Shown here in pieces: positions 21,487 through 38,972 of a stretch of 41,377 nt of DNA (position 1 is the stretch's first letter; each line of letters opens with the position of its first letter). This stretch comes from a virus, in IMG/VR virus record IMGVR_UViG_3300027762_000015, positions 1 to 41,377 of that record. One strand, 5' to 3'. The notes under the pieces were generated by a model. That model saw nothing but the letters and a program-made list of their open reading frames with translations. It had not been told where the DNA came from and searched no databases. The translations under genes and the position numbers were made by a program.

Positions 21487-22481
21487 TGGCAATACATATT
21501 AAAAAAAGTAAAGTTGGTTCTTTGCACAAACACCTTGGCGTTAAGAAAGGTGATAAGATACCAGCATCTAAATTAAAGGATAAACCCGGTGATTCTAAGG
21601 CTGTTAAAAAGAAAAAAGTATTTGCTAGGAATGCTAAGAAGTGGAAACATCCAGAAGGTGGTACAGTTCGTCCAACTAAGACTTCTATGGTAGTTAGTAA
21701 TAATGTGTGGACTCCACAAACTAGGCAAAGTATATATCCTTTATTAGCTAAGGCTGGTATGGTTGGTCATGGAGCTGATAGTTTAACATTAGACCAATGG
21801 AATAAACTTATACCAGAAGATACAATGAAATATATGAATAGAGATAAAGGGTTTGATTATACTGTTGGTAATACAGCTAATCCTGGCGGAGTTAAATACT
21901 GGTCTATGGATTTAGTACCTAATATGCAGAGTTATGTACCAAATAGTAATAGTACTAATTATTTAACAGAGAGGTCTAATACTAAATATCCTGGTGGTGG
22001 CCAAGTTATGAGTGGTATAGGTGGTGTATTAGGTGCTATACCAACACCATATACACAAATTGCTGGTGCAGTTCTTAACTTTGGTGGCATGTTGTTATCT
22101 GGTAATGAACAGAAGAAGGCTGAAGAAAAAGCAGCTTTACAAGATTACCAGACTAGTGCACAGAATGCAGCTAGGTTATCTAACAGTAAAACACGTAATC
22201 CGTTTACTACTACATTTGCATATGGTGGTCTTGCACCTAATGGTACACCTATTGAAGTTGAAGATGAAGAAGTTATGCGTAATCCAAATGATGGTAGTAT
22301 GGTTGAGTTTGATGGGGCTACACATGCACAAGGTGGCATAGATGTAGAAGCAGAACCAGGCTCACAAATATTTGGTAATTTAAAAATTAAGTCAGGTACA
22401 TACAAAGGTATGGAATATAAAGAAGCTGCTCAAGTTATTAAGGATAAGATTGCTAGGTTACAAAAAAAATTAGATAAGTAA
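21486..22481 (+). CDS. Probable cargo/structural protein with THAQGGI motif
   Basis: 331 residues. The N-terminus is Lys-rich (SLHKHLGVKKGDKIPASKL, then KKKKVFARNAKKWKH), typical of crAss-like internal proteins. A Gly-rich hydrophobic segment (about 175-205, VMSGIGGVLGAIPTPYTQIA) could be membrane-active. The C-terminus has TPIEVEDEEVMRNP, then THAQGGIDVEAEPGSQIFG, the V-E-G-x-E ... H-x-Q-G-G-[IV] motif found in many Bacteroidetes-phage virion proteins. A coiled C-terminal tail ends in RLQKKLDK, encoded by a run of eight A (22462-22469). It joins the next gene by TAATG, and the two may correspond to a single longer protein in relatives. Confidence 0.65.
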   Translation: MAIHIKKSKVGSLHKHLGVKKGDKIPASKLKDKPGDSKAVKKKKVFARNAKKWKHPEGGTVRPTKTSMVVSNNVWTPQTRQSIYPLLAKAGMVGHGADSLTLDQWNKLIPEDTMKYMNRDKGFDYTVGNTANPGGVKYWSMDLVPNMQSYVPNSNSTNYLTERSNTKYPGGGQVMSGIGGVLGAIPTPYTQIAGAVLNFGGMLLSGNEQKKAEEKAALQDYQTSAQNAARLSNSKTRNPFTTTFAYGGLAPNGTPIEVEDEEVMRNPNDGSMVEFDGATHAQGGIDVEAEPGSQIFGNLKIKSGTYKGMEYKEAAQVIKDKIARLQKKLDK

Positions 22482-23437
22482 TGGCAACATTGATTGATAA
22501 ATATAGTATAGAGAAAATGATTGATCGTTATCAGAAAGAGTTAGATCAATTGTTTGCAGAACAAGAAACTTTAAAGGTTAAGGCTAATCCATTTAGAAGA
22601 CTTAAGGCTAAAGGTGGTTTAGATGTACCAGAAGATTATAGATTTAATACAGCATATAATGCAGATGATTATATAGCATTAGAAGAAGGTAATAATCCAG
22701 GGATACAAAATGTTGGTCAGTATTTAAATACAGCAGAACCTACACAATCCCCAAAAGGTGTTTTTAATTTTAGGGATAAATTTGATATATTTCTTGCTAA
22801 TGCTGCTGATAAATTAAAAAATGCTGATTGGGATAAGATAGGTAATAGTGCTATGCAAATGGCATCTCCTATGTATAATATAGTAAAAGGTTTATCCAAA
22901 CCTACTAAAACATTACCTAAGTATAATCCTTACAATGATTATATAAGGTCGTTGATGAGGAATAGGCGATTTAATATTGATCCACTGCTTAATAAGAATT
23001 TAGTTGCAAATGCTGTTGCAAATAAGAATATAAGTAATGTTGCTAGGTCTCGTGGGGAGTTAATGAGTAACCTTGGAGCAGCACAGAATTACCGTATGAC
23101 AGGTGATATGGCGGCATACGCACATAAGGATAACATGGATAATCAGTATATGGCAGAAGAAGCACAGATGGATTATGGTGTAGGTCGTGATATATCTCAA
23201 ATGGATTGGGGTACACAGATAGCTAATGAACAGAATAAGGCTGCAAGGAATCAGTTTTTAGGGCAGGGTATGGTAGACTTTGGTCAGTTTGCTCAGGTTC
23301 AGCAGCAAATGAAAAATCAGAAAGGTAGGGATCAACAATTAGCTGGTATATGGCAGGATTCTTATCCGTTTATGTCTCAGTTTATGCCAAATGTTCAAAG
23401 CATTGTAGACTACGCCAATCAACTTAAAACAACATAA
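22481..23437 (+). CDS. Probable internal (cargo) protein, crAss-like
   Basis: 318 residues. The N-terminus is a coiled coil (MIDRYQKELDQLFAEQETLK, residues 13-32). A linker and then a highly helical, Asn/Gln/Met/Ala-rich region follow (about 150-280, with YIRSLMRNRRFNIDPLL, NISNVARSRGELMSNLGAAQ, then NQYMAEEAQMDYGVGRD). This helical Gln/Asn/Met-rich style is that of virion-internal proteins ejected with DNA. It begins within the stop codon of the preceding gene and is followed one base after its stop by another internal-protein gene. No catalytic residues are visible. Confidence 0.6.
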   Translation: MATLIDKYSIEKMIDRYQKELDQLFAEQETLKVKANPFRRLKAKGGLDVPEDYRFNTAYNADDYIALEEGNNPGIQNVGQYLNTAEPTQSPKGVFNFRDKFDIFLANAADKLKNADWDKIGNSAMQMASPMYNIVKGLSKPTKTLPKYNPYNDYIRSLMRNRRFNIDPLLNKNLVANAVANKNISNVARSRGELMSNLGAAQNYRMTGDMAAYAHKDNMDNQYMAEEAQMDYGVGRDISQMDWGTQIANEQNKAARNQFLGQGMVDFGQFAQVQQQMKNQKGRDQQLAGIWQDSYPFMSQFMPNVQSIVDYANQLKTT

Positions 23438-23438
23438 T

Positions 23439-25580
23439 ATGCAGACAAATCGATTTGAACAACCTCTAGCAGCACAATTTGTAAATACATACGTGCCTAT
23501 ACCATTTGAGCAGATGATGCAAGCTGGTCAGATGAAGCAAGAGAGATATGATAAGGCTGCCGGGGCTACAGATGCCCTTATAGGGGCAATGGATGATATT
23601 ACAGCAATACCTAATTCTGCAGATGAACTTCGTGCTAAGGACTATGCTAATAAAATGCGTTCAATACGTGACAAGTATCTTACAAGAGATTTGTCTGACC
23701 CATTTGTACAGCGTGAGTTAAGTAATGAGATCAACAATAATATTAATAAAGAAGATATAAAACATATACAGCAGTCATACCAAGGTTATTTAAATTATAA
23801 TAAAATATTATCTGACTACGCAGCAAAGGGTGTAGATCCTCCACCGGAAATGTTAGAGAGATTTAGTGGTTATGATTCTACTGTTAAAGGTGTATTTACA
23901 GGTACTCCACAGCAGCAATTAGATGTTTATGGTGATACTAGGAAGTTCTTTGAGGACATGGAAATGCAGTATCAAGGAGTTGTTGATTTGTCTCCTGGTG
24001 TTAAGGGACTTAAGCACGCAGTAACAGAAGAGCGTATATTAGAACATGCTAAGAATAATATAGGTGCTTATATGGCGTTACCATCTGTTAGGCAACATGT
24101 AGAGGTAATGAAAAGGCGTGGACTTGATGAAGGTAAATCTCGTGAGCAATTAGCTTTTGAATATGTACAAAATCATGCACCTGAATTTGCTAGGTCTGCT
24201 GTTAGTAATCCATTTGAAGACCCGAATTATGTACCTGGTGGTGGTACAGGTAATCCTACTGGTCAGTCAGAGCCAGAAACATTTGGTAGAGGACCTGCCG
24301 AAGGGGAAGACTTTAAGAAACGTCAAATGATGAAGGATTATAATAGTCTTGTTGAACGTTATAAAGAAGGGGATACTTCTGTTAAAAATGATATAGACGA
24401 GATTGAAGCAGCTTGGGCAAATGCTGGAAATGTTCCTAGAGAGGGTTCTAAGACTACACCAAATGAAAATATTGAGAGGTATCAAACAGAAGGAGAAGCG
24501 TTGTTTCAAGCTACATTAGATGTTTTAGTTGATAAAGGGATGCCAGAAGACGAAGCTTTTCTTTATTTAGAATCTAATGCGTCAGAACCTTTAATAAATA
24601 TGTATAAGAGTGGTTCTAAAGCAGGTGTAATGTATATTAATGATCCATTACTTAAAGGTAAGGTAGAAAATATTGCAGATGCTTATAGGCTTAATTATTT
24701 TTCTAATCCGTTGATGCCAATGGAAGATAAGAAACGCAAAGAAATTTTTAATGAATATCAAAAAGCCAATTTATCCAATGAACAAATATTAGCAGATTAT
24801 GTAGGTAAGTCTAATGATTTGACTAAGAAAATTTCAAAAGAGCAAGACAACATAGAAAAATATAAGTTACAAGAATACAATAAGTTACAGCCTACACAAG
24901 ATACATATACTATTGTTAATGGTATGTTTGCTTATAATAAAAATATAGGCGCTTTTGAAGGCACTTATTTTGACAAAAACGGGGTATCTAAAAAGTATTC
25001 TAGTATATCTAGTAAAAAGGTAACTGATACTATTTATAATCCAAATAATTATGAAAAATCCTTCTTTGATGAAAAAGGTAAACCTATTAAAAAATCTGAA
25101 AAAATTAAAGAAGCAATAGCAAATAGTTCTGGTTTTACAATTACTGGGTTGGATAATAATGTAACAGATTCTCATAAGGCTAAAATAAAGATTAATATGC
25201 TTAACGAAAGTGGAATGCCTAGTGGTAGTAATTTTATAGTAGAGATACCTTTTGATAGTGATAAAGAATTATCAAGTTTTGTTAGAGAATTAACTAACAG
25301 GAATCAAACTAAAACAAAATTTCAACAACTCACAGTACCAAGTGTAAAAGCGGCTTTAGATGGTGTAGCTATATATGATGGTGAAGAAATAAGTCTTACA
25401 AAATTGGGAGCAATAGGGGAATCTCCTAACAATAAAATAGTATTTGAAAGGTATGGACAATCTCCTTTAATAATGCCAGTTTTAATAAAAGATGGTATAC
25501 GTCAAGAAATGACTAAGCAACCAGTTGGTTTAAAGAATTTACCTTTTGCCATTACTAATTATTTATACAATATTATTTAA
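23439..25580 (+). CDS. Cargo protein, crAss-like
   Basis: 713 residues. The N-terminus NRFEQPLAAQFVNTYVPIPF followed by QMMQAGQMKQERYDKA is a recognisable crAss-like signature for a helical virion protein encoded just before the polymerase. The first 250 residues are helical. A Gly/Pro/Thr-rich linker follows at about 265-290 (VPGGGTGNPTGQSEPETFG). A second helical part runs to about 490, and a beta-rich C-terminal domain from about 490 (YTIVNGMFAYNKNIGAFEGT) to the end. Inferred role: packaged inside the capsid and released at infection. Its TAA overlaps an ATG that is followed immediately by another TAA. Confidence 0.68.
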   Translation: MQTNRFEQPLAAQFVNTYVPIPFEQMMQAGQMKQERYDKAAGATDALIGAMDDITAIPNSADELRAKDYANKMRSIRDKYLTRDLSDPFVQRELSNEINNNINKEDIKHIQQSYQGYLNYNKILSDYAAKGVDPPPEMLERFSGYDSTVKGVFTGTPQQQLDVYGDTRKFFEDMEMQYQGVVDLSPGVKGLKHAVTEERILEHAKNNIGAYMALPSVRQHVEVMKRRGLDEGKSREQLAFEYVQNHAPEFARSAVSNPFEDPNYVPGGGTGNPTGQSEPETFGRGPAEGEDFKKRQMMKDYNSLVERYKEGDTSVKNDIDEIEAAWANAGNVPREGSKTTPNENIERYQTEGEALFQATLDVLVDKGMPEDEAFLYLESNASEPLINMYKSGSKAGVMYINDPLLKGKVENIADAYRLNYFSNPLMPMEDKKRKEIFNEYQKANLSNEQILADYVGKSNDLTKKISKEQDNIEKYKLQEYNKLQPTQDTYTIVNGMFAYNKNIGAFEGTYFDKNGVSKKYSSISSKKVTDTIYNPNNYEKSFFDEKGKPIKKSEKIKEAIANSSGFTITGLDNNVTDSHKAKIKINMLNESGMPSGSNFIVEIPFDSDKELSSFVRELTNRNQTKTKFQQLTVPSVKAALDGVAIYDGEEISLTKLGAIGESPNNKIVFERYGQSPLIMPVLIKDGIRQEMTKQPVGLKNLPFAITNYLYNII

Positions 25581-25588
25581 TGTAAATG
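25578..25588 (+). promoter_or_regulatory. Start-stop element TAATGTAAATG before polymerase gene
   Basis: The TAATG overlap used at six other junctions is present here too, but its ATG (25580-25582) is followed at once by an in-frame TAA. The real start, ATG at 25586, comes directly after and is in the same frame. Minimal ATG-stop units can stall or recycle ribosomes and so dampen the downstream start. Here that would lower synthesis of a 4461-residue protein. Regulatory effect is inference. Confidence 0.4.
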
Positions 25589-28500
25589 AATAATAACATA
25601 TTAAAAAGTCCTCAAGGAGAAATATTAAACGACACTCCCTTGGGTACTGAACCTATAAACTCTATGACAGGGTTAGAGGAAGGTCCAAAATTTAAAATAG
25701 ATGTCGACAAATTTAAAAATGCAGGAGCATTATCTCGTCAAGAGCTTATAGGTCGTATACATACAGACGATGTAGAAATACCTAAAGCTGTTTATAGAAT
25801 TTTGGATGATATGTATCACCCCGAATTCGATCCCGAGTATAATGCTATTTTGCTTTCTAGGGAACAGACTAATGCTGGTAAATTTGTTGCTGCACTCAAT
25901 CAAGCCGTTGTTGGTGAGATGTTTGCAGGTACATTAGAAGGGTTATCATATTTGGTAGATCTTCCTATGATGGTGGATTTAGCAGAGGGTACTGAACAAG
26001 AGTTTGGTAATGCTTTAACTGATTTTGCTAAAGGGATTAAGGGGTGGACTCGTGAGGCTACTCCTGTATTTACAGATCCGACAGCACCTAAATTTAATCC
26101 TACATCTTGGGAATGGTGGATGTCTAATGCTCCGTCCATTGCGTCTAGTATATCTTTAGCATTACCTGCAGTAGGTGGTATGAAAGCCTTATCTGCGGTT
26201 GGTAAATTGGTTGGTATGACTGGTAAGGCTGGTAAGTATAGCAAGTTATTTAGTACTGCTACTGGTCAGGCCATTATGTCAAGGCACATGGAGAGTTTGA
26301 TGGAAGCTAGTGGTGATCATCAACAGAATATTGAAATAGCTAAGCAAAAATTGTATCAGAAATATGCTAATCAAATAGATTCTGAGATTAAATTATTACC
26401 TGTATTTACTCCGGTGGACCCAGAATTAGGTCCTAAGCCAGGGCAATATACACAGGAACAATATCAAAAGGATTTAAATAGAATAAAAAACAAATGGGAG
26501 TCTGTTGTATCAGAAGAGGCTTCTAAGATTGCTGCAGTGTCAGCTTCTAATACTTATGCTAAAAACTGGGTTATGTTATTACAAGACATACCAGAGTATA
26601 TGTTATTAGGTAGGCTAATTAAACCAGGTGTTAAAGGTATAGCAAAAGAGGCAGTTGAGAATTCTGCAGAAGTTGCTAAGCGAGTTGGTATGGATATGCC
26701 AAAGTTCTATGCCAGTAAGGTTGCTAAACAAATAGGCAACATGGCTGGTGAAGGGTTGGTAGAAGAAAATTATCAGTTCTTAGTAAATAAGCAGTCTGCT
26801 AATATGATAGCTAACTTGGATAATCCTGAAAAGAAGAATTCGTTAGTATCTGTGTTAGGAGATGAGTATGATAATGGTGAACTTTGGACTAATATATTTT
26901 TTGGTGCTTTAGGGGCTGGTGCTATGCAAGCTACTATGGCAGGTCTAAATGCTAAAGCGTTTTCAGAGGCTGCAAAGACTAAGATTAAGAATATTAATAC
27001 TTGGTCTACATTAATGTATAAACTTAAATCTGATTATGTAGCAGCTGAGGAACTTGGTGATGAGGCGCTGAAAGAAGCAGCTATACAGAATTTTGTAGCT
27101 GCTACAGGTCTTAAGTCTATAGAGCTAGGCAATAAGGAGCATTTACTTAATATGATAGATGCTTTAGCCAGTGGTGATGAGAATGTGTTGCTTAATTATG
27201 AAATGGAATCTGGTACTAGGTCTTTCATGAAGGGGCATAACGAAATAGCTACAGACTTAAAGAAATCTATAGAGAGTATAGATAAGAAGTATAAAGATGC
27301 TATGCTTGAAGTTGTTGGTAAGGGGGTTGAAGAAAACAAAGCCAGACCAATAGCTAGGTCAATTGCACATGCTAACCACATGTTAGAGTTTTTAAATGGC
27401 AAACAGAAGCAAGCACAGGAGAATTTAAAAGGGTTACAAGTATTAGGGTATAATACACCAACCCCAGAGAATGAACAATTATCTATAGAAGGTCAACAAA
27501 TATTTGCAGCACGTCATGAGAAAGATGTACTGAATAAAAGGATATCTCAGTTAGATAAAAGGGCCGCTAATAATAGGGCTACAGAAGCTGAGAAGAACTC
27601 TTTAGGTAAAATAAAACAGGGTTTACAAAAGAGAGTTAAGGAGATAAGTGATGAAGCAAAGGAGCTTGGTAAAAGCCCTAATGTTTCAGAAGATCAAAGG
27701 GTTGTTGATAAAAAACTACTTGGTACAGAAAAGAAATCAGGTGTTATATCTCAGTCTGATGTAAGTAATTATTTAAATGCACAAGAGGCATTAGAGTCTT
27801 ACAACGTTGGTATTGAAGAATTTAAAGACCAATTAGAGCAAGCTAGGTTAACAGCAGATGAATTAGGTAAGAAGAAGCCTGATAGCAAACCTACTACACC
27901 AAGCAAACCTACAACAGAGGATGATGGTAAAGTATTTAAAGGTAGTGTAGTTAGCTACAAAGATCCTGAGACAGGTGAAGATAGACTTGGTGTTGTTGAT
28001 GAAGTAGAGTACGCTACAAAGGACTCTAAGGGGCAAGATATTGTACCAAAGTTAGAAAGTGCTGATAATTTTTACACTGTAACATCTTTAGACGAAAGGG
28101 ATAAAGGTAAACAGGTACACTTATCAGGACTTAGTATAAAGCCTGTATCTCCAGAAACTGTTAAAGAGATAGATAATGGGTTAGCAGAGGATGATACCGA
28201 TGATTGGGATGCTTATGTTAAATCTACAGTGTTTGGTGCAATAAGTATCAAAGATGCACACAGGCGTAAAACAAACACCCACAAATCGCCTAGTCAAGAG
28301 TCAGAGAAAGGTCTGATGGAATTTGTTTCATGGGCACATTATGAAGATGTGACCGATGAAGAGGCTAAAGAATTAGTAAATAATGGTCAGACACCTAAGC
28401 TTATTATACGTAATGAAGGTTTTAATAAGTTTATATCTAATCCAGAAAATCAGAAATATTTAGATAATGCTACTGCAGAATTTTCTATTGATGTAGAAAA

Positions 28501-31500
28501 CAAAGATTTTAAGGCAAAGTTAAAGGAGTGGAAGTCTGAAAAAGGTCTTCATAAGAATTTACCAAAAGGGTATGTTGAACTTATAGAGGAGTTCTTAAAG
28601 GGCAAGAAACAATTGTCTGCTGAGAATTTAAAAGTATTATCGTCTATACCCTCTTTTTATGGGGAACTCCCTATATCTGTTAGGTTAACTATAAATGGTA
28701 AGCCGTTTACAGAGGGGTTATATCTTCATACATTAAGTAAAACGTTAGGTTCTTTAACTAATAAAGACGTATACAAGGCTTATAAGGATATGCGTCTTGC
28801 TATTGTTAAGCATCTTATTAAAGGAGATAAAATATATACCAAAGGTTTATCAACAAACCGTGGTAATCCATTAAACATAGACAAATCTAATTCTGTTGAT
28901 TCTCGTAAACGTAATGTTGCAGAAACATTAAAAACACCGGTTAATGAATTAGAATTATATGTACTTAAATCATCTACAAAGTTATCAAAGCAGATACGTA
29001 GTGCCAAGACACCGGATGAAAAGGTAACAGATGAATACGAAAACCCTAGGTTAGTTAAGTCTGCAGAAGAGACAGTGGTGATGGATTTTAATTCATCTTC
29101 TACTGGTTCTGTGTTTGCTAAGACTAGTTTAACAGTTAATGGCAAACCTTTTGCAGTTAAACTAAACAAGTCGTTTGTTTCTCGTGATCATGCGTTTCTT
29201 TTATTCCATGCCTTTAGTAATTTAGCTAAGAGTGAAGTACGTGGGTTAGGCAAGATAGTTCCTAGAACAGATGAGAAGTCTGGTAAGGATGATATAGGTT
29301 ATTATAATACACCACTTGGGTCTACTAAGGAAGATAAAGAGGGTGAGAATGTTATTGATAATATCTCTGCAGGAGAATTATTAGATCTGTTAGTTGTACA
29401 TGGTGAAGAATTAACTAATCCAGATAGCGAAAGGTATTCTGGGGTTAATGAATATAAGCGTATGTCAGAAAGGCACAGATTTGCTTTGAAAAACAAGCGG
29501 CTGTTTCTTAAACGTGGATATGATGATAAGGGTAATATAAATGCTGTTTACTTGTGTTATGGTGTATCAGTAGAACCACACCCAATAAATACTTCTACAC
29601 CGGGTACTACAAAGCTGGTTGATTATAATGTTATTGATTTAACGTCTCCTGTTGGTAATAGTAAGGATGGTATAGCCTATCAATCTAGTGTTGAGAGTTT
29701 TGTAGATTGGGTATCTGGTAAATATGACCTAAAAACTAAAAAACTTATTAGTGCTCCTAATAAAACATATGCTGTACATTTAGAACATAAAAGAATAGGT
29801 CAGAAATTAAACGGTTCATTTTTACAAGGTCGTAGTTTTAGGCTAGGTAAAAAGGGTTTAAAGGTACAAGTAAAAGATGTTATGTATAAAGGGTTTGATT
29901 ATACATCTACATCTGAAATACTTCGTAAACCAGGCGAATCTTATGTTGAGTTTCTTGTCAATAATGGTTTTGTTACAACTGATTTAGAGGCCAAAGATGG
30001 TCTGTTATTTGACACTCCATTTGTTAAACTTGGGTTAGATAGGACAGCATCTAACTTTGGTATAATTGTTGGTGAACCAGATAAGGCAGAGACTAAAGTT
30101 GCATCTACAGAGGTAACAGAGGAGACAGATAAGAATGTTACAGTTACAGAAGAGGTTAAAGTAGATAAGCCAAAGGCAACAAAGAAAGTCAAAGGTAAAA
30201 AGTCTGTATCTGATGTTATGAATAAAGGTCAGGTACATCTTAGGGAACGTAAGATTTCTGTACGTAAGCCTTATGATAAGCAAGACTTAGAAAAAGAGTT
30301 GTCGTGGGTACGTAAGAAATTAAATATTAAAGACGTTGAAGTTGAAAAGCGTTTATCTAACATGATGTTACATGGTAAACGTGCATGGGCTATATATTCT
30401 AGTGAAGCTATAAAACTATATGAATTAGCAGAAAGTGGTACTATATACCACGAAGGTTTTCACAGAGTTAGTCTAGGTTACTTTACTAAACAAGAGCGTG
30501 AGGCTATATATAGATCTGCTAGGCAGTTATATAGAATGTCTAAAGAAGAGTTTACAGATAACCAAGTTGAGGAGAAATTAGCAGAGGAGTTTCGTGATTT
30601 TGTACTAATGAAAGGTAAGGAGTCACAACCTAGTATTATTAAACGCATATTCCAAGAGATTGTAGATTTTATAAAGGCTGTATTTTATAGGGTAGCTGGT
30701 AAAGGGTTAACACACTCTGACATAGAGAGACTGTTTAATCAGATTTATTCTGGTCGTTACAGGTTCTCTAACATACGTTCAGAGAATTTGGGTGTTGAGC
30801 CGAGGTTAAGAGAGTTAATGGGTTTACAGTTTGATACCATATCTTCGTATAAGGACATAACAGATATTACTAAATATCTATCTTGTAGGTTGTTTGCAGC
30901 AAATAAGATTAGTGACTTAAGTAAGGTGCGTAAAATTAAATGGCAGCCCTTAATTAATGATTTAAATAACACTATAAGTGAATTACAGAGCATAATAGAA
31001 GATGAAGAAACATCAGAGGCTGAGCGCAATGTTGCTTTAAAGTCTCAGTCCTTATTGAAAGATGTACTTGGTGAAAAAGGAGAGAATGGCGAGTATTCTA
31101 AATTTAATTCTTTTAAATATTATATAAGCAAATTCCTTCGTAGTAACGGTATTATACACAGGGAACGGGATACAGACAATGATGAGTTTTTTGATTCAGA
31201 TGATTTTTTTGCATCATTAGACTCAGAAGAGAAGTCGGTACGCCTTGGTTCTTTTGGTGATGTTGATTACTTTAAGCCATTAAAAGAAAATGCATTAGCA
31301 AACGTTAAATTTGTTATAAATACATTACACGAATCTGATGATATTAATGAGTCTACTGGTTTAGTTGGATTTGTTAATGGTAATAAGGTATGGGCTAAGC
31401 TGTTGAATGACATTATCAAGTATGATGATGTATATGAAATGATTGACGAGATCAAAGCAGTAGGTGAACGTGAAGAGTATTATCCATATATAGAATTAGC

Positions 31501-34500
31501 CTCTTATTTAGAGAAGTCAAGCGAATCGTTCAGGACTCAGTTCCAAACAACCTTTGAGGCACACAGACATGAGTTTATAAATGCTTCATTTCATAGGATA
31601 AAGTCTGGTGAAGGCTCTAATGCTGGTATTAATATAACGTTTGATGACGCTGCACACTCTGAATTAAAACGTGGTACTGCTCTAAGGTGGGCAGAATATA
31701 TACTGTATGATAATAAAATTATTGAGGGTGTTAAAGAAGAAGATACTTCTGTAAGGGATAAGAAAGTAAATAAAGATTTCTTTACAGAACTTGCATCAGA
31801 TTATAGGGATGTAGTAGAAGGTTATTATAGAGAGGTCAGCAACAACGGGCGTAATGAGTTATCAGACACTGAATTAGAAGAGTTGTACACTAGGGTAGCT
31901 AGGGCTTTATCTAAGATGCATATTGATGTAAGTACCTCTGTATTACGTAGGTATACACATAATATCAATCCAGACAACCAATTACAGGATAACTTAGAAG
32001 TTGCTATATCTAATATATTGGATATGCTATCCCCTGAAACTATAACAGAGGATGATAAACCAACAACCCCTATGGGTAACATACACTTCTTATCGTTGGC
32101 TACAGCTTATGCTGAAGTTAATACACACGAAGAAGCTGGTATGGTGCTAGGTCCACAAGGTGGGTCTTTTTACAGGTATGCTAAACTTAATCATGCTACA
32201 GATATAGTTCGTAAAATAAAACGTGGTCCTAAGTGGGCACAAGATAAACTTTCCAGGCGTTATAATGGTCATTCAAGAATAATGAATTCATTTGTTCCTG
32301 GTGAAACAGTTAATGAAGAACAAGCAAAACTTAACAGAAGTAAGTTTAAATTAGTTACATTAGCTGCATTTAAATCTGGGGCAAGGGCGGATCGTGGTCG
32401 TGAATATTTGAAGATAAATACAATTGAAGATTATTTACTTAAGGCCAATTCTGTTCTTAAAGGCGGACTGTTACCATTCCCTATTATAGCTAATAGGCAG
32501 ACTTATTATTTTATGCAAGGTGTTAAGCTTGTAGGTATAAAGGATGCTGAAGGAGATATATTACATGTCATAAAGAGTTCCGATAAGGATGGCAATGTAC
32601 AGTTTACAGACGAGGTGTTAGATTTATTCTATGGTTATTACTTAGATGAGAAAGATAGAATTGACAAAGCTGTAATTGAACGTAACGAATATGAGGCTGA
32701 GAATAAAAGGTTACAGGATCTTAAAAAACAACCAGGGGTAGACATAAAGAGTATAGATAAGCAGATAAGGGCTTTAAAACACAAGCTTATAGCTAATTAT
32801 CATTATCGTGGTAACTATAATTTAAAGCAAGGCAACGCTTATTATTTTATACACTTTAAAGGCTTTGAAGGGCTACAAACCCCAGAGGAAGTTCGTACCA
32901 AGATAAATAACTTACTTAATGATAGGCTAAAGGATGATATAAGGTTCTTATATGATCAACAAATTATAGGGTCAAATACAGAAAAAGAGCGTAAAGAGTC
33001 TGGTGAATTGTTATTATACAACAAACTGTTTGATCAGAGTATGGTGGACAATCACAGGATGTTAGAAGAACAGCCACACAACTTTGCAATGTTATCTGTA
33101 ATATCCAAAGTCATGGTTAATACTATGATGGGTATTGTGGAGTCTGAGAAAATGTTTCTTGGGGACCCTGCCTTATTTAAGCGTAATAAACGTGGTCAGG
33201 ACCGGGCAATGGAAGGTAAACTTACAGACTCCGAGTTTGATGTATATGAAGATGTATACAAACGTTGGTTTGGTGTAGGTTCTACTGGTACAAGGTTAAG
33301 GGCTAAGTATAATGGTAGGGGTAATACATATAATGTTTCTGTATTCAACACACAGTCTTTTGAGTCAAAGTACTACCCAGAGTTTGTAGAGAAACACACA
33401 GGCTTGTATGAGAAACTTTTAAAAAACAGGTTATCAAAAGAAGAACTTGCAGATGGATCAAAGTTAAAAGATATACAAGAATTAGCAAAAACATTAGCAG
33501 AGAGTAGGCTTAGTAAGTTTAGAAAGGTTGATGCTACCGATGGTATGGCATTGATATCTCCTTATATGTATAAGCAGATATTAGACCGTATGGGTATTTG
33601 GGGTAAGGATGCAAGGTTAGAAAGGGCTTATAATTTACTGCAGTCTGATAAAGAGTTAACTCCAGAAGAAATAATTGAGGCTAGCAATATTGTATTCAAT
33701 CCTTTGAAGACAATGTATATGGGCAACCACAATTTTAATGGGGTTGATTTGCTTATTTACAACAAAATGGCTATGTTCACCTTGTTTAGGCAGCATGTTA
33801 AAGGCACACATCTAGAAAAGGTGTTGGACCGCATGGAGTCTAAAAAGGAATTTAAGAACTTAGAAAAGGTAGATGTATATAACTTTAATAGTGCTGTCAA
33901 AGTAGGCGCATTGGCCGGTGTTGATTTATTTGAGAATGAAAATACTAGGAATAAAACAACAGACTTCTCTGAGTCTTTAGTATTCCAGCAGTCTTTTGAC
34001 AATTTAAAACATCAGCAAGTTACAGATCCACACGATTCAGCTAGGCAGAACTTTGGTACAGCTGGTATCAAAATTGGTATGGCAGATATAGATATGAACT
34101 CTCCTTACGGTTCGTTTAAGACCGGTAGAGAGTTATTAGAAGCTATGTCAGAATCTAGGGTTGCTGCTAGTGATTTTGGTGTACACAAGGTTAATGCTAA
34201 GTTTGGTATAGTTAATGGTAAAGTATCACAGAAGGTCTTTACTAATACTTTACGTCAGGATGCAGAGTCTGCTAACAAATCGCAAGACGTTGTTGAATCG
34301 TTTAAGGTAGGGGCAGATGGTAAAAAGTATTTAGAACTAGACTCTTATCCTAACAGACGTTGGATATACTCTAGGATAAAATCTCTTGTAGATGATGAGA
34401 CGGTTACGTTATCTACACCAGGTAATCAGCTTTATCAGATGTCTGATTATGGCATGGGTACGCATAATTATAAATCTGATTTACAGATGACAAGGTCAAA

Positions 34501-37500
34501 AGCTGGTTCATCTACAGTATATGCTATGGAATGTAGGGTGTCAGCTCGGTTATTTAAGGCGTTTTTCCCTGCTGGGCATGTTATTACACAAGAGGATTTA
34601 CAGAAATTATTGGATGATGAAACTCTTATATTTGGGTACCGTGTACCTACACAAGGCCAGAACTCCATTGTTAAATTAAAGATAGTAGAGTTTCTGCCAG
34701 AACAAACCGGGGATATTATACAACTTCCTTTAGAGTTTACTGCACTTACTGGTTCTGACTTTGATATTGATAAATTATTCGTAGCCATGTTTAATTATGA
34801 ACATGAATATGATGGTGATGCATTTAAAGGGCTCAAGAAAGTTGCATTTAAAACAGATGAGAATAGTACTGCAGAAGAAAGGTATAAGGATAAAGTAATA
34901 GAGTTGTTTTCTGTGTATAGGCATAACCCAGACATGTTTGCTGGTGGGCTGCTGTCAAAATATTTTAAAGATTATGATAACAAATTTAGGTTAAGTGATA
35001 TAGAGTCTAAAATAGATTCTGTAAATGAAGAGTATGGGGAAGAGTTAGATTTATTGATGACTAGGCGTGAGTCTATGTTAGATAAACTTAGTAAGTCTAA
35101 AAATAAAGAGTACAATAAAGCTCTTGAAGATGATATAGCCACAGCTAATAGGCGGATAGAGGAGATACAGGAGATTGTATACAACATGCCTTTACAACGT
35201 AAGGTTGATAAGCAGTTAGAAGATGTGGATTATGAGATGTTGAAGGGCATTCTTATTAAGTCTGGTGTTTTACAGAAATTAGAAGATTTTAAAAAGTTAC
35301 CAATTTCATTCCAGAATACTAATGCCGCTTGTTGTAACAGGCTATTGGATTGTTTATTTACAGTGTTAAGTGATGAGAAACACTTCCTAAATATGACAAC
35401 TCCTTTGGGGTCTTGCACAGATTTATTAGAAAACAAGTCTGCTTATTATGAGGAAGTTTATTCTAGGCAGAGTATTAGGAATGTACCTGCTCTGTTTACA
35501 ACAACCCCGTCGTTTCAGGCACACACTAAGGAAAAATTTGCTGCATCCGTATTTGGTATAGCTCCGTATGCTTTAAATAATAACAACCATTCATTAACTC
35601 AGATGGCAGATGTTTCCCTAAAATATGATATAGATTTAGGGTTTAATAAGAAAGGGGAAGTATCTTTAGCCAGAGTTATGGGTGAAGATAACAGGGCTGT
35701 AACCTCGTGGATATCTGCTTTGATTGATATAAACGTGGACGGTGTTAATAAACCAACCGCAGCCCCGTTGAATATAAATGAATCTACACACGATGTAGTG
35801 AACTTTTTAGTTCGTGCCGGTATTGGGGAACCTGTGTTTGATTTTATAGCACAGCCTGCCATAAGGAGCTATAGTTCTAATTTCTTTAAGTCTGCTACAG
35901 GTAGTAAACGTTTCAGTACTATTACGTCGATAGACTCTAAAGATCCTTTGGGGGATACTAGAGAAGAGTATGCAACTAATGCTGTTGATGGTGGCTTCTT
36001 TAAGAAAGAAGAATTAGAGTATGATATATTCTTAGAAAATTCGTTGATTCCATTAAGTGAACTTTTAAATGAGAGGTCTATACCTATTATGCGTGAAGAT
36101 GCAAAAGCATTTAATAAAAGGTCTTTACGTACAAAGGGTTGGTATCAGCGTCAGTTATCTATATTGTGGCACTTAGGGGCTTTAAAAGAAGCCTCAGCCA
36201 AACTCAATGCATTTGTATTAGCCTGCAGGGTAGATACAAAAAAATATGGTTCAAAACCTACAGAAATATTACATTTCATAAAATCTATACAGAATATTAT
36301 AGACAGTGAAGATTTTACAAATGTTGAAAAAATACTAACAGCTAATCCTAATTATGAATACAAGGCTGGCGATACATTTTTGCCTACACTCATAAGGAAT
36401 AGTATGTTTAAGATATACGAAATATTAAAGTATGAAAGTTTATATTCGTCATATGGGTTTAGGAAGTTATTAGAGGAATTAGTAACTGTTACCCCACAAG
36501 GAGAGTATAATAGAATGGGTTTATTAAATATGTTGTCAGAAGAACTGGTAACATTCTTTATGGGTAAGTTTTTTGCTGATCCTGTAAATGGTTTTGGTAT
36601 GGATCATTCTAAATTAACTAAGTTATTATTCGAAAAACGTGGTAATAAGTTTTTTGAAATGTTAATTCAGTTAAAAAATGGTACACACCCATTATCCAAA
36701 GAATTAGAGGGTAATGCTTTTATGGACTCTATAGTTGTAGACTTTTCCGATAATATACTTAAATTCAAGGATAATCGTGGCTCTGTTTATACATATATTA
36801 AAACGTTATATAGGTCATTGCGTGATGATTTAGAAAAGGATGAGCTGGTTGATTCGTTTAAACAGATAGTTTATAGTGATAAGAAAGAGCTGAGAGATCT
36901 TGGTATATATTTATATATGTATTCATTTTATACCTCTGCTTTTAGGGATAAGCGATTTTCTTATGCTTCGTGGATGCCTTTATCATTAAATAAAGAGCTT
37001 GAGTATGATGGTAGGGTTATTAGTTTAAATAATTTTGTTAGTGGTTTATTGAAAGAACTCAATGCACCAGATGGCTATATTAAATATATCCAAGATGCTA
37101 AGAGAGATGTATTCTTAAATACTGCAGATACTTTCGCAACTGTCCCTAGTGTTGTGGACACCATTGTTGCAGAACGTTTTGTAACGAAGGATGATGAGCC
37201 TCTTATGATACGTTTGAGATATGAAGATATGCCTAAGAGTTTCTGGCTAGGTCGTAATGCAGATAAGAATCATGTGTTTATACCTTATGTAATAGACAGT
37301 TCTAATGATTTGTATGAGTATGTTGGTTATGACAGACATTCGTTAGATCCTTACTATGTTAACGTGCCATTTAAAGGGTTTGGTAATAAAGGTATTATGG
37401 CCCATGAGTATGGTATTAAGACTAAGAAGGGTGATATACGTTCTGTATTTGCAACAAATCATGCACAGAAGCTATTACTTACCGTAGACCAAATGATCAA

Positions 37501-38971
37501 TAAGGTATTAACAGATCCAAAACTTATGAGTGAATCTCAACGTAATTTGTTTAATGGTGTATCATTCGAGAATCAGATAGTTAAAGACAAATCTAATCAA
37601 CCGTCCTCATCTATTTGGAATAATGATGCAGCAATGACAGCCAGGGAAGAAGAGTCTGAGCTTAACGCACAAGCCGAAGTAGATGCTGAAAAGGCTGTTA
37701 AACAGCGTAGCTTAGCAACTGGTTATGATGATGAAGTTGAAGCATTAGATAGTAATATTAAACAGTCTGTGGACAATAAAACAACAAGGGACCATCCCAT
37801 ATATATAGATGTTGATGGTTCAGCCAAAGGGGAAAATGGTATGGGCATTGGTGGTTACTCAAAGTTTGGTGACAAAGAGTACTACTTATATCGTAATGAT
37901 GAGAAGATACGTTCTTCTATAGCCAAATTAGCAGAGAATGCTGGTGTTGAAGTGCCAGATAATATAAGTAACCCAACTGCCGAGTTATACTCTGTTGTTA
38001 CGGTTTTATATGCATTTAGGAACACTTCTGAGCACTTACACATACGTAATGACAATGAGATGTCTATGTTATTATTAAAAAATAACTTAGTTAATCTAAA
38101 GAATAAGCCGCAATACAATGCTAAAGAGCCTATTATAAAGATTTTAACAGACATGGCTAAAGAGTATATAACTAGTATTGAAAATAACGGCGGCACTGTT
38201 AAATTTGAATGGGTTGAGAGTAAATCTACTCCTCAAAATAAGATAGCAGACGTTATAGCAAAGGGTAAACACAAGTTAATAAGTAAGGTTCAGAATGATT
38301 TCTCTACTGAACAGTGGGGTAAACCAACTAAGTTTGACATGAACAAATTGTCTCCGCCATCTCCCTTTAATGTCATAGAAAAGATTATATCTGGTGGTCA
38401 GACTGGTGCAGATGAAGCAGGTCTTGAAATAGCAGATGAAATGGGTCTTAAGTTTGGTGGTACTGCCGCTTATGGTTACAATCAACAGCCAGAAAAGGGT
38501 AAAAATATACCAAATTATAAACTTCGTGATTACTATAGGCTAAAACAAGGTAAGAAAACCATTAGGATTGTCAAAGATACTAATAAATATTGGGATGATT
38601 TTTACTCGGACAGGACGGCAGAGAATGTAAAAAATTCTAGTGGTACGGTTTGGTTTGGCCACATAACAGAAGATGAAAAGCGTGGGTATGGTCTTACAGA
38701 GAGGGCGACTAAAGCCAACGACAAACCTTTCTTAGTAAATCCAACAGAAAAAGAATTAGCAGACTGGATTGTAAAGAATGATATACGTATATTAAATGTG
38801 GCTGGTAATAGGGAATATTTAAATGTTGGTGTCAAGAATAGGACTAAAAAGACTATACGTGAGGCATTAGAGCTACTTAGGAAACCTGCTGGTGGTGTAG
38901 AAGTTGTAAATGACTTGAATGCATCTGACGTTAAAGACGGTTCTGAAACAACTAAAAAGTGTAGGGGGTAA
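25586..38971 (+). CDS. Giant virion RNA polymerase polyprotein (zincin, RNAP, RNase H, SLOG)
   Basis: 4461 residues, roughly twice the ~2,180 residues I recall for phi14:2 gp66. Layout by eye: 1-460 ejection-type region with hydrophobic stretches (about 184-211, 438-456); helical part; linker 763-782; second region; linker about 1496-1541; zincin with HEGFH at 1622-1626 and probable third ligand E1667/E1668; polymerase core with SAVK (K2772), DNLKHQQ (2805-2811), GYRVPTQGQNS (3017-3027) and catalytic DFDID (3058-3062); charged linker about 4018-4068; RNase HI-like domain (D4075, E4133, D4156, D4222); SLOG-like domain (ISGGQTGAD, 4268-4276). The polymerase would enter with the DNA and transcribe early genes. 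The protease may process the chain or a host target. Start ATG 25586 follows a start-stop element. Confidence 0.85.
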   Translation: MNNNILKSPQGEILNDTPLGTEPINSMTGLEEGPKFKIDVDKFKNAGALSRQELIGRIHTDDVEIPKAVYRILDDMYHPEFDPEYNAILLSREQTNAGKFVAALNQAVVGEMFAGTLEGLSYLVDLPMMVDLAEGTEQEFGNALTDFAKGIKGWTREATPVFTDPTAPKFNPTSWEWWMSNAPSIASSISLALPAVGGMKALSAVGKLVGMTGKAGKYSKLFSTATGQAIMSRHMESLMEASGDHQQNIEIAKQKLYQKYANQIDSEIKLLPVFTPVDPELGPKPGQYTQEQYQKDLNRIKNKWESVVSEEASKIAAVSASNTYAKNWVMLLQDIPEYMLLGRLIKPGVKGIAKEAVENSAEVAKRVGMDMPKFYASKVAKQIGNMAGEGLVEENYQFLVNKQSANMIANLDNPEKKNSLVSVLGDEYDNGELWTNIFFGALGAGAMQATMAGLNAKAFSEAAKTKIKNINTWSTLMYKLKSDYVAAEELGDEALKEAAIQNFVAATGLKSIELGNKEHLLNMIDALASGDENVLLNYEMESGTRSFMKGHNEIATDLKKSIESIDKKYKDAMLEVVGKGVEENKARPIARSIAHANHMLEFLNGKQKQAQENLKGLQVLGYNTPTPENEQLSIEGQQIFAARHEKDVLNKRISQLDKRAANNRATEAEKNSLGKIKQGLQKRVKEISDEAKELGKSPNVSEDQRVVDKKLLGTEKKSGVISQSDVSNYLNAQEALESYNVGIEEFKDQLEQARLTADELGKKKPDSKPTTPSKPTTEDDGKVFKGSVVSYKDPETGEDRLGVVDEVEYATKDSKGQDIVPKLESADNFYTVTSLDERDKGKQVHLSGLSIKPVSPETVKEIDNGLAEDDTDDWDAYVKSTVFGAISIKDAHRRKTNTHKSPSQESEKGLMEFVSWAHYEDVTDEEAKELVNNGQTPKLIIRNEGFNKFISNPENQKYLDNATAEFSIDVENKDFKAKLKEWKSEKGLHKNLPKGYVELIEEFLKGKKQLSAENLKVLSSIPSFYGELPISVRLTINGKPFTEGLYLHTLSKTLGSLTNKDVYKAYKDMRLAIVKHLIKGDKIYTKGLSTNRGNPLNIDKSNSVDSRKRNVAETLKTPVNELELYVLKSSTKLSKQIRSAKTPDEKVTDEYENPRLVKSAEETVVMDFNSSSTGSVFAKTSLTVNGKPFAVKLNKSFVSRDHAFLLFHAFSNLAKSEVRGLGKIVPRTDEKSGKDDIGYYNTPLGSTKEDKEGENVIDNISAGELLDLLVVHGEELTNPDSERYSGVNEYKRMSERHRFALKNKRLFLKRGYDDKGNINAVYLCYGVSVEPHPINTSTPGTTKLVDYNVIDLTSPVGNSKDGIAYQSSVESFVDWVSGKYDLKTKKLISAPNKTYAVHLEHKRIGQKLNGSFLQGRSFRLGKKGLKVQVKDVMYKGFDYTSTSEILRKPGESYVEFLVNNGFVTTDLEAKDGLLFDTPFVKLGLDRTASNFGIIVGEPDKAETKVASTEVTEETDKNVTVTEEVKVDKPKATKKVKGKKSVSDVMNKGQVHLRERKISVRKPYDKQDLEKELSWVRKKLNIKDVEVEKRLSNMMLHGKRAWAIYSSEAIKLYELAESGTIYHEGFHRVSLGYFTKQEREAIYRSARQLYRMSKEEFTDNQVEEKLAEEFRDFVLMKGKESQPSIIKRIFQEIVDFIKAVFYRVAGKGLTHSDIERLFNQIYSGRYRFSNIRSENLGVEPRLRELMGLQFDTISSYKDITDITKYLSCRLFAANKISDLSKVRKIKWQPLINDLNNTISELQSIIEDEETSEAERNVALKSQSLLKDVLGEKGENGEYSKFNSFKYYISKFLRSNGIIHRERDTDNDEFFDSDDFFASLDSEEKSVRLGSFGDVDYFKPLKENALANVKFVINTLHESDDINESTGLVGFVNGNKVWAKLLNDIIKYDDVYEMIDEIKAVGEREEYYPYIELASYLEKSSESFRTQFQTTFEAHRHEFINASFHRIKSGEGSNAGINITFDDAAHSELKRGTALRWAEYILYDNKIIEGVKEEDTSVRDKKVNKDFFTELASDYRDVVEGYYREVSNNGRNELSDTELEELYTRVARALSKMHIDVSTSVLRRYTHNINPDNQLQDNLEVAISNILDMLSPETITEDDKPTTPMGNIHFLSLATAYAEVNTHEEAGMVLGPQGGSFYRYAKLNHATDIVRKIKRGPKWAQDKLSRRYNGHSRIMNSFVPGETVNEEQAKLNRSKFKLVTLAAFKSGARADRGREYLKINTIEDYLLKANSVLKGGLLPFPIIANRQTYYFMQGVKLVGIKDAEGDILHVIKSSDKDGNVQFTDEVLDLFYGYYLDEKDRIDKAVIERNEYEAENKRLQDLKKQPGVDIKSIDKQIRALKHKLIANYHYRGNYNLKQGNAYYFIHFKGFEGLQTPEEVRTKINNLLNDRLKDDIRFLYDQQIIGSNTEKERKESGELLLYNKLFDQSMVDNHRMLEEQPHNFAMLSVISKVMVNTMMGIVESEKMFLGDPALFKRNKRGQDRAMEGKLTDSEFDVYEDVYKRWFGVGSTGTRLRAKYNGRGNTYNVSVFNTQSFESKYYPEFVEKHTGLYEKLLKNRLSKEELADGSKLKDIQELAKTLAESRLSKFRKVDATDGMALISPYMYKQILDRMGIWGKDARLERAYNLLQSDKELTPEEIIEASNIVFNPLKTMYMGNHNFNGVDLLIYNKMAMFTLFRQHVKGTHLEKVLDRMESKKEFKNLEKVDVYNFNSAVKVGALAGVDLFENENTRNKTTDFSESLVFQQSFDNLKHQQVTDPHDSARQNFGTAGIKIGMADIDMNSPYGSFKTGRELLEAMSESRVAASDFGVHKVNAKFGIVNGKVSQKVFTNTLRQDAESANKSQDVVESFKVGADGKKYLELDSYPNRRWIYSRIKSLVDDETVTLSTPGNQLYQMSDYGMGTHNYKSDLQMTRSKAGSSTVYAMECRVSARLFKAFFPAGHVITQEDLQKLLDDETLIFGYRVPTQGQNSIVKLKIVEFLPEQTGDIIQLPLEFTALTGSDFDIDKLFVAMFNYEHEYDGDAFKGLKKVAFKTDENSTAEERYKDKVIELFSVYRHNPDMFAGGLLSKYFKDYDNKFRLSDIESKIDSVNEEYGEELDLLMTRRESMLDKLSKSKNKEYNKALEDDIATANRRIEEIQEIVYNMPLQRKVDKQLEDVDYEMLKGILIKSGVLQKLEDFKKLPISFQNTNAACCNRLLDCLFTVLSDEKHFLNMTTPLGSCTDLLENKSAYYEEVYSRQSIRNVPALFTTTPSFQAHTKEKFAASVFGIAPYALNNNNHSLTQMADVSLKYDIDLGFNKKGEVSLARVMGEDNRAVTSWISALIDINVDGVNKPTAAPLNINESTHDVVNFLVRAGIGEPVFDFIAQPAIRSYSSNFFKSATGSKRFSTITSIDSKDPLGDTREEYATNAVDGGFFKKEELEYDIFLENSLIPLSELLNERSIPIMREDAKAFNKRSLRTKGWYQRQLSILWHLGALKEASAKLNAFVLACRVDTKKYGSKPTEILHFIKSIQNIIDSEDFTNVEKILTANPNYEYKAGDTFLPTLIRNSMFKIYEILKYESLYSSYGFRKLLEELVTVTPQGEYNRMGLLNMLSEELVTFFMGKFFADPVNGFGMDHSKLTKLLFEKRGNKFFEMLIQLKNGTHPLSKELEGNAFMDSIVVDFSDNILKFKDNRGSVYTYIKTLYRSLRDDLEKDELVDSFKQIVYSDKKELRDLGIYLYMYSFYTSAFRDKRFSYASWMPLSLNKELEYDGRVISLNNFVSGLLKELNAPDGYIKYIQDAKRDVFLNTADTFATVPSVVDTIVAERFVTKDDEPLMIRLRYEDMPKSFWLGRNADKNHVFIPYVIDSSNDLYEYVGYDRHSLDPYYVNVPFKGFGNKGIMAHEYGIKTKKGDIRSVFATNHAQKLLLTVDQMINKVLTDPKLMSESQRNLFNGVSFENQIVKDKSNQPSSSIWNNDAAMTAREEESELNAQAEVDAEKAVKQRSLATGYDDEVEALDSNIKQSVDNKTTRDHPIYIDVDGSAKGENGMGIGGYSKFGDKEYYLYRNDEKIRSSIAKLAENAGVEVPDNISNPTAELYSVVTVLYAFRNTSEHLHIRNDNEMSMLLLKNNLVNLKNKPQYNAKEPIIKILTDMAKEYITSIENNGGTVKFEWVESKSTPQNKIADVIAKGKHKLISKVQNDFSTEQWGKPTKFDMNKLSPPSPFNVIEKIISGGQTGADEAGLEIADEMGLKFGGTAAYGYNQQPEKGKNIPNYKLRDYYRLKQGKKTIRIVKDTNKYWDDFYSDRTAENVKNSSGTVWFGHITEDEKRGYGLTERATKANDKPFLVNPTEKELADWIVKNDIRILNVAGNREYLNVGVKNRTKKTIREALELLRKPAGGVEVVNDLNASDVKDGSETTKKCRG
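30300..30780 (+). other. Zincin metalloprotease domain in polymerase polyprotein
   Basis: Residues about 1572-1732 contain SGTIYHEGFHRVSLGYF, an HEXXH zinc motif (H1622, E1623, H1626). About 41 residues later comes KLAEEFRDFV, whose Glu is the probable third ligand. A helix with IFQEIVDFIKAVFYR follows. The same order of elements occurs in zincin domains of other phage polyproteins. A polyprotein-processing or host-directed protease role is inferred. Confidence 0.75.
33800..35000 (+). other. RNA polymerase catalytic core (double-psi barrels)
   Basis: This part encodes the barrel with the SAVK lysine (K2772) and the DPHDSARQNFGTAGIK segment. The second barrel follows, with GYRVPTQGQNS leading to LTGSDFDIDKLF. 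The three aspartates D3058, D3060 and D3062 should coordinate the catalytic magnesium, as in the DxDxD loop of crAss-like gp66, YonO and QDE-1 type polymerases. Confidence 0.85.
37800..38290 (+). other. RNase HI-like domain
   Basis: Four acidic residues occur in RNase HI order: D4075 in IYIDVDGSAKG, E4133 in NPTAELYSV, D4156 in HIRNDNEM and D4222 in NKIADVIAKGK. Just before the last is FEWVESKS, where RNase HI normally has V-x-G-H. The GH histidine loop is replaced, but the metal-binding set looks complete, so cleavage of RNA in RNA-DNA hybrids is plausible. Confidence 0.72.
38370..38920 (+). other. SLOG / putative molybdenum-carrier-like domain
   Basis: Residues about 4263-4445 begin with EKIISGGQTGADEAGLEIA, and continue with GGTAAYGYNQQPEKGKNIP, Y-K-L, DRTAENVKNSSGTVWFG, AND-KPFLV and ILNVAGNREYL. 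This order matches the putative molybdenum carrier family (a Rossmann-like LOG/SLOG relative: SGGQTGxD, RTxxNVxxSDGT, LNVAGxR). The GGQTG loop is the expected nucleotide- or phosphate-binding site. Substrate is unknown. Confidence 0.78.
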
Positions 38972-38972
38972 T

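Follow-up and report, generated by a model that had tools for sequence, protein, structure and literature searches.

A 41,377-nucleotide stretch of viral DNA (IMG/VR record IMGVR_UViG_3300027762_000015, positions 1–41,377; hereafter the window) carries on its plus strand an open reading frame (ORF) of 4461 codons, 25586–38971, that appears to encode a crassviral virion RNA polymerase in fused form, in which a gp67-type subunit with a zincin-like domain is joined to a gp66-type catalytic subunit and followed by an accessory tail. The window and its relatives are best explained, as a whole, by a fused polymerase, an exchangeable slot for effector domains and a covalent chain running from gp67 through gp66 to gp65. 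We regard this joint reading as probable. The human gut harbours crassviruses in great abundance, and a disulfide-stitched chain would offer an account of how megadalton amounts of protein leave a phage head in order. If the reading is true, enzymes against host signalling would reach the cell through the swap slot among the first molecules to be injected, ahead of any build-up of the signal.

The giant protein begins with a gp67-type region (about residues 1–1539; 25586–30202), identified by aligning 15 relatives, the window included, to gp67 of Cellulophaga phage phi14:2 (hhalign E 2.5e-13 over 248 columns). A zincin-like domain follows (about residues 1540–1750; 30203–30835) with the motif HEGFH at residues 1622–1626. 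HExxH and a downstream glutamate, Glu1663, are invariant in all 17 relatives aligned around the motif; these rows were chosen by HExxH, and the glutamate played no part in the choice. The best metallopeptidase matches in a profile search of the PDB, PPEP/Zmp1, reached only E 0.3. The same domain lies at the C-terminus of a separate gp67-type protein in Steigviridae (hhalign E 2.5e-30), which indicates that the giant represents gp67 and gp66 fused. The polymerase core (about residues 1900–3990; 31283–37555) matches PDB entry 6vr4 (E 1.3e-24) and phi14:2 g066, annotated as 'Catalytic RNA polymerase subunit' (tblastn E 2e-24), and the aspartates of its DFDID motif (residues 3058–3062; 34757–34771) are invariant in a 21-row alignment whose rows were picked by that motif itself.

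A charged linker separates the core from an RNase HI domain (residues 4071–4245; 37796–38320). Its AlphaFold2 model from a six-row alignment has a mean predicted local distance difference test score (pLDDT) of 90.3 and a predicted template modelling score (pTM) of 0.89; the best Foldseek match is Escherichia coli RNase HI (E 1.9e-7), and comparison with the archaeal RNase HI 2ehg gives a VIA Z of 14.6. A PDB sequence search with the domain found no credible match, and the homologous domain of the relative L003 matches PF00075 (E 1.6e-5). The RNase HI active site consists of DEDD carboxylates, and the auxiliary active-site histidine is H124 in the E. coli enzyme. All four carboxylates (D4077, E4133, D4156 and D4222) are invariant in 6/6 sequences; a candidate for the histidine occurs as GH in L042 and as AH in L043 and is not seen in the window, L003, L040 or L121. 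A single-sequence AlphaFold2 model of the tail alone (391 amino acids; aa) had a pLDDT of 33 and was discarded, leaving the RNase H model as the usable one. The last domain is a cpYpsA SLOG (residues 4267–4426; 38384–38863), which matches PF12694 (E 2e-18, 67 bits against a cut-off of 26.2) and PDB entry 3imk (E 3e-7), with which it shares the GGQTGAD loop (residues 4270–4276). An earlier note, made from the letters of this DNA alone, had read the frame as an ejection-type region, a zincin, a polymerase, an RNase H and a SLOG. Sequence, profile and structure searches of the separate regions recovered the last four, the zincin by its motif; the first region is also there, and hhalign describes it better as a gp67-type RNA polymerase-associated subunit.

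The ends of these proteins carry a regular pattern of cysteines. Counts were made on named genomes and on IMG/VR loci, the latter being the best 80, by similarity to the alignment, of at least 491 matches, and hence biased towards relatives of the window rather than random. Seven duplicate loci (L039, L052, L055, L075, L094, L119 and L120) were dropped beforehand, as were L047, L070 and L116, in which the motif pattern did not match; the counts do not include Dulem virus 42 (L028). As read from the predicted termini, cysteines in the putative gp67–gp66–gp65 chain occur at ends next to a separately encoded neighbour and are very rare at other ends. In phi14:2, gp67 has one cysteine (its last residue), gp66 two (residues 3 and 2179 of 2180) and gp65 one (residue 3). 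The window's giant ends KKC4459RG (the cysteine codon, third from the end, at 38960–38962) and the next protein begins MDYC4. Closed polymerase ORFs have a cysteine among their last four residues in 70/86 cases (0.5 expected), whatever cassette precedes, and those not fused to gp65 have one among the last 11 in 80/81. Among gp65-type genes that immediately follow the polymerase, 76/76, window included, have one within the first 12 residues (cr131 pieces and cr124 left out of this gp66/gp65 boundary count); about 1.6 would be expected for the 75 such genes longer than 900 aa, and in 42 of these 75 it is the only cysteine. At the opposite end, where the stop is in view, a cysteine among the last 12 residues occurs in 1/63 (L073).

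The same holds at the gp67/gp66 boundary. Polymerases split from gp67 start with a cysteine (MAC, MSC, MSNC and the like) in 24/24 cases, L086 being classed as split by hand from an upstream ORF ending SCGF, versus 0/51 of those fused to it. L090, split at a different point, is still paired, its upstream ORF ending KKCN and the next starting MACR. The gp67-type ORFs of at least 700 aa directly before a split polymerase have a cysteine among the last 12 residues in 12/14 cases, and L086 and L090, counted apart, also have it. Polymerase ORFs fused to gp65 in the main set contain no cysteine at all (7/7; 2994–5714 residues). These seven were first noticed through their missing cysteines and long tails, and the gp65 profile was a later check; built from 15 gp65-type genes, it matches all seven (E 2e-43 to 1e-157) and three further fusions in Intestiviridae, and found no match in 11 other polymerase ORFs. 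Control ORFs of 250–999 aa from the same loci have a cysteine in the first eight residues in 3/168 cases (12.3 expected) and in the last 11 in 18/168 (16.5 expected); with longer ORFs included, 27/259 have one in the last four, many of these being gp67-type or polymerase ORFs missed by the filter. L121 runs off its contig, so that its C-terminus gives no evidence and more may follow its SLOG; it is part of a 90-ORF cysteine tally and absent from the split/fused counts. A cause at the nucleotide level, through overlap of stop and start codons, was rejected: opposite-strand gp67-type genes of cr112_1, cr128_1, cr106_1 and cr116_1 still end in cysteine.

Five further genomes were taken after the idea had formed, three of them Intestiviridae, a family absent from the named genomes of the main set. 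In this family gp67 is a protein of its own and gp66 is joined to gp65, which leaves a single expected junction. It reads ...SFSCM / MSCG... in p-crAssphage and ...YTCS / MACE... in Rudgehvirus, and neither fusion has a cysteine at its far end. In crAss002 the gp67-type protein ends ...FVCS and the annotated gp33 starts MVLDYS, with MSCTPSNP at residue 33, which we take to be the true start. The Steigviridae cr106_1 and cr116_1 each have all four expected cysteine ends, the polymerase gene of cr116_1 being interrupted. The expected cysteines are thus present in 13/14 positions as annotated, or 14/14 with the crAss002 start moved, and outer ends have one in 0/10 (12–14 residues checked). In cr116_1 (L126, 8723–19588) a stretch with a small ORF breaks the polymerase gene just after DFD in an intron-like manner, and the second half ends in cysteine. 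Thioredoxin genes adjoin the p-crAssphage block, and a 'TRX' note occurs in Rudgehvirus.

Cysteines that stand at facing ends, are nearly missing at outer ends and are gone on fusion are most simply read as forming a bond that replaces the missing peptide bond. The three parts would then form one chain in the virion, held by peptide bonds where fused and by disulfides where split; oxidizing conditions outside the cell would let the disulfides stand, and the chain might leave the virion as an ordered thread, to be reduced once in the cytoplasm of the host. The window would represent a two-protein form, with Cys4459 of the giant linked to Cys4 of the next protein. The tails of crAss001 use disulfides, and partial unfolding with ordered ejection of cargo has been proposed in passages that give no link between cargo proteins (PMC10172136). 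The terminal cysteines might instead form no bond to one another and serve capsid, portal or scaffold as a metal-binding site or as a tag for docking or packaging. Their position at protein ends would suit such a tag, as would C-terminal cysteines in both gp67- and gp66-type proteins; we nevertheless think it rather doubtful, since they are nearly absent from the ends of the chain (the 0/51 giant N-termini and 1/63 gp65-type C-termini above) and vanish at fused junctions, whereas a tag belonging to each protein should stay on the fused product.

The tail past the core is, by its predicted domain content, a swap site: in the window and the three relatives closest to it, the protein ends in a cpYpsA SLOG, an A1S_2505 domain, a DprA-like SLOG or nothing after the RNase H. 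Tail-less polymerases extend about 930 residues past DFDID (927–947 in cr52, cr60, cr6, cr125 and cr53) and the window 1404. RNase H is followed by cpYpsA SLOG in the window, by A1S_2505 in L003 and by a DprA-like SLOG in L121 and L043; it stands alone in L040 and comes after SLOG, in reversed order, in L042. Other tails consist of SLOG only (cr109, cr10, L048, L049, L060 and L097), A1S_2505 alone (L051), SLOG and NADAR in either order (cr130, cr272, L083 and L072), A1S_2505, NADAR and SLOG together (L063), or an SF1 helicase with or without other families (cr118, cr50, L062, L087, L099, L101, L103 and L115). The scans named no family in the tails of L041, L045, L054, L058, L064, L068, L074, L092, L110, L079, L090, L091, L113, L114, cr7 and cr55, those of L054 and cr7 having matches below the cut-off only. 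Closed ORFs that extend more than 1000 residues past DFDID number 53, gp65 fusions included, and 25 of them have at least one of the five families. The local hidden Markov models for tail families were scored on sets that contain their seeds, and their E-values, unlike the library matches, are therefore not independent. Neither the A1S_2505 nor the DprA-like SLOG profile found a credible match in the PDB, and we do not propose a macro-type fold for A1S_2505, as the L003 domain gave only chance-level matches (one viral macro-type protein at E 0.86).

Exchange is also seen between close relatives and on a tree of 94 cores. Over 90 tree rows (L044, L046, L050 and L108, which run off their contigs and have no recognized domain, were left out), SLOG occurs in 20 rows with 17 changes, NADAR in seven with six, A1S_2505 in seven with six, SF1 helicase in nine with seven and RNase H in six with two. 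The window and L003 are 25–78% identical per 60-residue block up to the end of the RNase H and 14–26% thereafter. L101 and L103 are 72–100% identical before, and 92–100% after, a block of 13–49%, which contains a SLOG in L101 only; in both proteins the block between NADAR and helicase includes a stretch, diverged between these near-identical proteins, that we take to resemble an AlkB-type dioxygenase. On the N-terminal side, cr112_1 (L018) and crAss001 (L088) are 97.3% identical over 2412 residues save for about 149 residues with A1S_2505, and form a ready natural pair for testing this domain. Record-wide searches with phrog_768 (22 + 24 records), PF08719 (46) and phrog_2072 (46) placed library matches to SLOG, NADAR or A1S_2505 inside the polymerase frame in 31/31 places, one of them in an annotated piece of cr131_1 (record 61111–65316) taken as the third segment of an interrupted gene for the polymerase; several of these records are incomplete, and tails played a part in the choice of those from IMG/VR. 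In the 20 named complete phages alone the figure is 8/8.

The slot may carry effectors that are injected together with the polymerase. SLOG domains, and NADAR elsewhere, would bind or break ADP-ribose-type immune signals before phage gene expression, a role predicted for phage SLOG and NADAR domains (PMC9503650); the RNase HI might attack R-loops of the host or strip RNA from RNA–DNA hybrids formed on the incoming DNA in early transcription. That some cassettes hold a helicase suggests that the slot serves more than a single purpose. The full scheme, in which a gp67/gp66/gp65 thread, stitched by disulfides where genes are split and by fusion otherwise, would be pulled in order through the tail and released in the cytoplasm with an effector slot directed against nucleotide-signal immunity, is in our judgement evenly poised. 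Another view is that the RNase H and SLOG serve the polymerase, the former trimming hybrids and the latter sensing a nucleotide and tuning early transcription. Both are fused directly to the core, RNase H is stable in the window clade and sensor roles have been suggested for some phage SLOG fusions (PMC9503650, in part of its text); but 84/90 tree rows do without RNase H and 70/90 without SLOG, the last domain is exchanged or lost between close relatives, and accessory domains can lie on the N-terminal side instead (cr112, L078 and L086), which makes this view improbable. The earlier statement that these parts have no obvious place in transcription therefore suits the last domain well and the stable RNase H less so. 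A passive tail, which is cut off or kept merely since fused genes are packaged anyway, would accord with the charged linker and with a zincin in the same chain, zincin processing having been proposed for polyvalent proteins (passages of PMC5512222); with RNase H carboxylates invariant in 6/6 and the same few families recurring in 31/31 places within the polymerase gene, we give it little credence.

Several points weigh against the account of an effector slot in a disulfide-stitched chain. The chain, the enzyme activities and the presence of these proteins in the virion of this phage are predictions from sequence alone. None of the five families is found in 28/53 of the long tails. At the gp66/gp65 boundary, cr273_1 has no C-terminal cysteine although its neighbour has an N-terminal one, 5/81 ORFs showed no gp65-type neighbour in the available stretch, and three of the seven gp65 fusions (L076, L097 and L112) lack their 5' end. 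At the gp67/gp66 boundary, the two remaining gp67-type proteins have a single cysteine 24 and 32 residues from the end, classification of L086 by length alone would give one mismatch in 75, and the gp67-type gene lies on the other strand in four Steigviridae, for which reason the identity of the partner there is indirect. The split or fused state changes only about six times on the tree, the N-terminal cysteine changing with it, and the four supported independent split/fused pairs, which all agree, are too few for significance. The window's giant has eight further cysteines, many relatives have more, up to 39, and the three Intestiviridae fusions keep 4–8 in total, so that avoidance of cysteine is partial rather than strict. 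In p-crAssphage, gp47 (L122, 1588–4161; 857 residues) has its single cysteine second from the end with no obvious partner; crAss002 gp30 and Rudgehvirus gene49 have a similar single cysteine, 8–11 residues before the end. Finally, Fig. 3 of PMC7886860 marks conserved domains of the transcription block, among which some of the tail domains may already be drawn.

The frame itself is well founded. It has no internal stop, and the remaining five frames over 25586–38971 have 139–696 stops each with a longest open run of 135 codons. IMGVR_UViG_3300009009_000011 (101,841 bases) matches window positions 23083–41377 identically and is taken as the same contig, so that it gives no independent check. Single unbroken frames also occur in independent relatives, among them L003 (4148 aa with its 5' end truncated, 51% identical to the giant) and L040 (4270 codons from stop to stop), and in 15 named Suoliviridae polymerase genes (4328–6386 aa, several open only if TAG is read as sense), which speaks against a local misjoin. 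Although only one contig represents the window, a chance frame or an assembly error is refuted by L003, L040 and the named genomes, whose frame, order and neighbours agree with it, and has next to no probability. The single 4461-residue frame of the earlier note was thus confirmed, and the assembly error that it named as its own possible undoing was not found. Its view that one giant gene is unusual did not hold, as gp67 and gp66 simply vary between fused and split. The predicted giant size and gp67/gp66 fusion are ordinary, one gene being equal to phi14:2 gp67 plus gp66: with cr124_1, whose gene begins at the record end, left out, 15/16 Suoliviridae with a wholly readable polymerase gene have it annotated as one gene, cr131_1 having it in pieces, and a review reports single polymerase genes of up to about 6000 aa (PMC10136315, in the part available). 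Two of the 15 named genes are annotated 'DprA-like DNA recombination-mediator protein', a SLOG label, so the fusion is already visible in public annotation.

Several known systems resemble the window's. The virion RNA polymerase of phi14:2 (gp66, PDB entry 6vr4, with gp67 and gp65) shares core homology, DFDID, gene order and cysteines at the gp67/gp66/gp65 junctions, but consists of three split proteins, and its gp66 lacks an accessory tail. The single-gene polymerases of Suoliviridae (cr4_1, cr109_1, cr130_1, cr50_1 and others) share the large gene (4.3–6.4 thousand aa), the neighbours, the zincin and the core, but carry different cassettes, or none recognized, in place of RNase HI plus cpYpsA. 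The N4 virion RNA polymerase is a T7-type single-subunit enzyme; N4-type polymerases can be likened to the window's for their zincin, and their core is unrelated. Profile phrog_2206, which represents N4-type virion RNA polymerases, is matched at about its positions 2043–2249 by the tails of L061 (10764–11975; E 9e-10) and L111 (12713–14566; E 2e-5), close to where the N4 enzyme carries its zincin, and this connects the cargo proteins of crassviruses with those of N4 type. Polyvalent proteins (Iyer et al., 2017; PMC5512222) are injected or injectable multidomain proteins in which a zincin and effectors form a pre-packed set; the window's giant likewise has several unrelated enzymatic domains in one protein and would be injected, and the available text does not mention crAss. 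Phage SLOG and NADAR proteins (PMC9503650) have the same domain classes and predicted role but are typically standalone, whereas the window's SLOG is fused to a virion polymerase; the word 'crass' is absent from the portion of that text at hand. The earlier idea that extra functions ride with the injected polymerase proved sound; that all parts enter the cell we infer from virion proteomics of relatives (phi14:2 record annotations; part of PMC10172136). No title on crassviral polymerase tails or cargo disulfides was found among open-access papers, most subscription papers lying outside the search. The newness of the slot and cysteines is judged from the open-access literature; the size and fusion are already known.

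The upstream neighbours match crassviral muzzle and cargo genes, which identifies the locus as the transcription/cargo block of a crassvirus. A 1430-aa muzzle or stabilization-type tail protein (17194–21486, plus strand) was recognized by tblastn to crassviral 'virion structural' and 'putative stabilization' proteins, and two cysteine-free cargo-type genes of 318 and 713 aa (22481–25580, plus strand) match neighbours in cr118_1 and cr50_1 by blastp. The polymerase lies between these cargo genes and a gp65-type gene, as in crassviral virion RNA polymerase loci. The latter, a putative RNA polymerase-associated protein (38973–41375, plus strand), starts one base past the giant's stop codon, runs off the window and shares 48% identity with the gp65-type gene of L003 over 805 residues; it has its Cys4 codon at 38982–38984, HEFGH at residue 155 and an exonuclease-like region at residues 384–563 (phrog_298, E 2.5e-5). 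The family matches phi14:2 gp65 (hhalign E 4.6e-58); the matching columns may fall outside the portion that the window covers. By polymerase, the closest named relatives are Suoliviridae (about 28–32% identity), and the closest overall among the matches listed are the IMG/VR contigs L003 (51% over the giant), L040 and L121. Elsewhere in the window, a 167-aa ORF between two tail-fibre-like genes (1375–1878) presumably resembles a GIY-YIG homing endonuclease, and a 145-aa ORF (13123–13560), followed by a small ORF of possible holin type, resembles what we take to be an N-acetylmuramoyl-L-alanine amidase.
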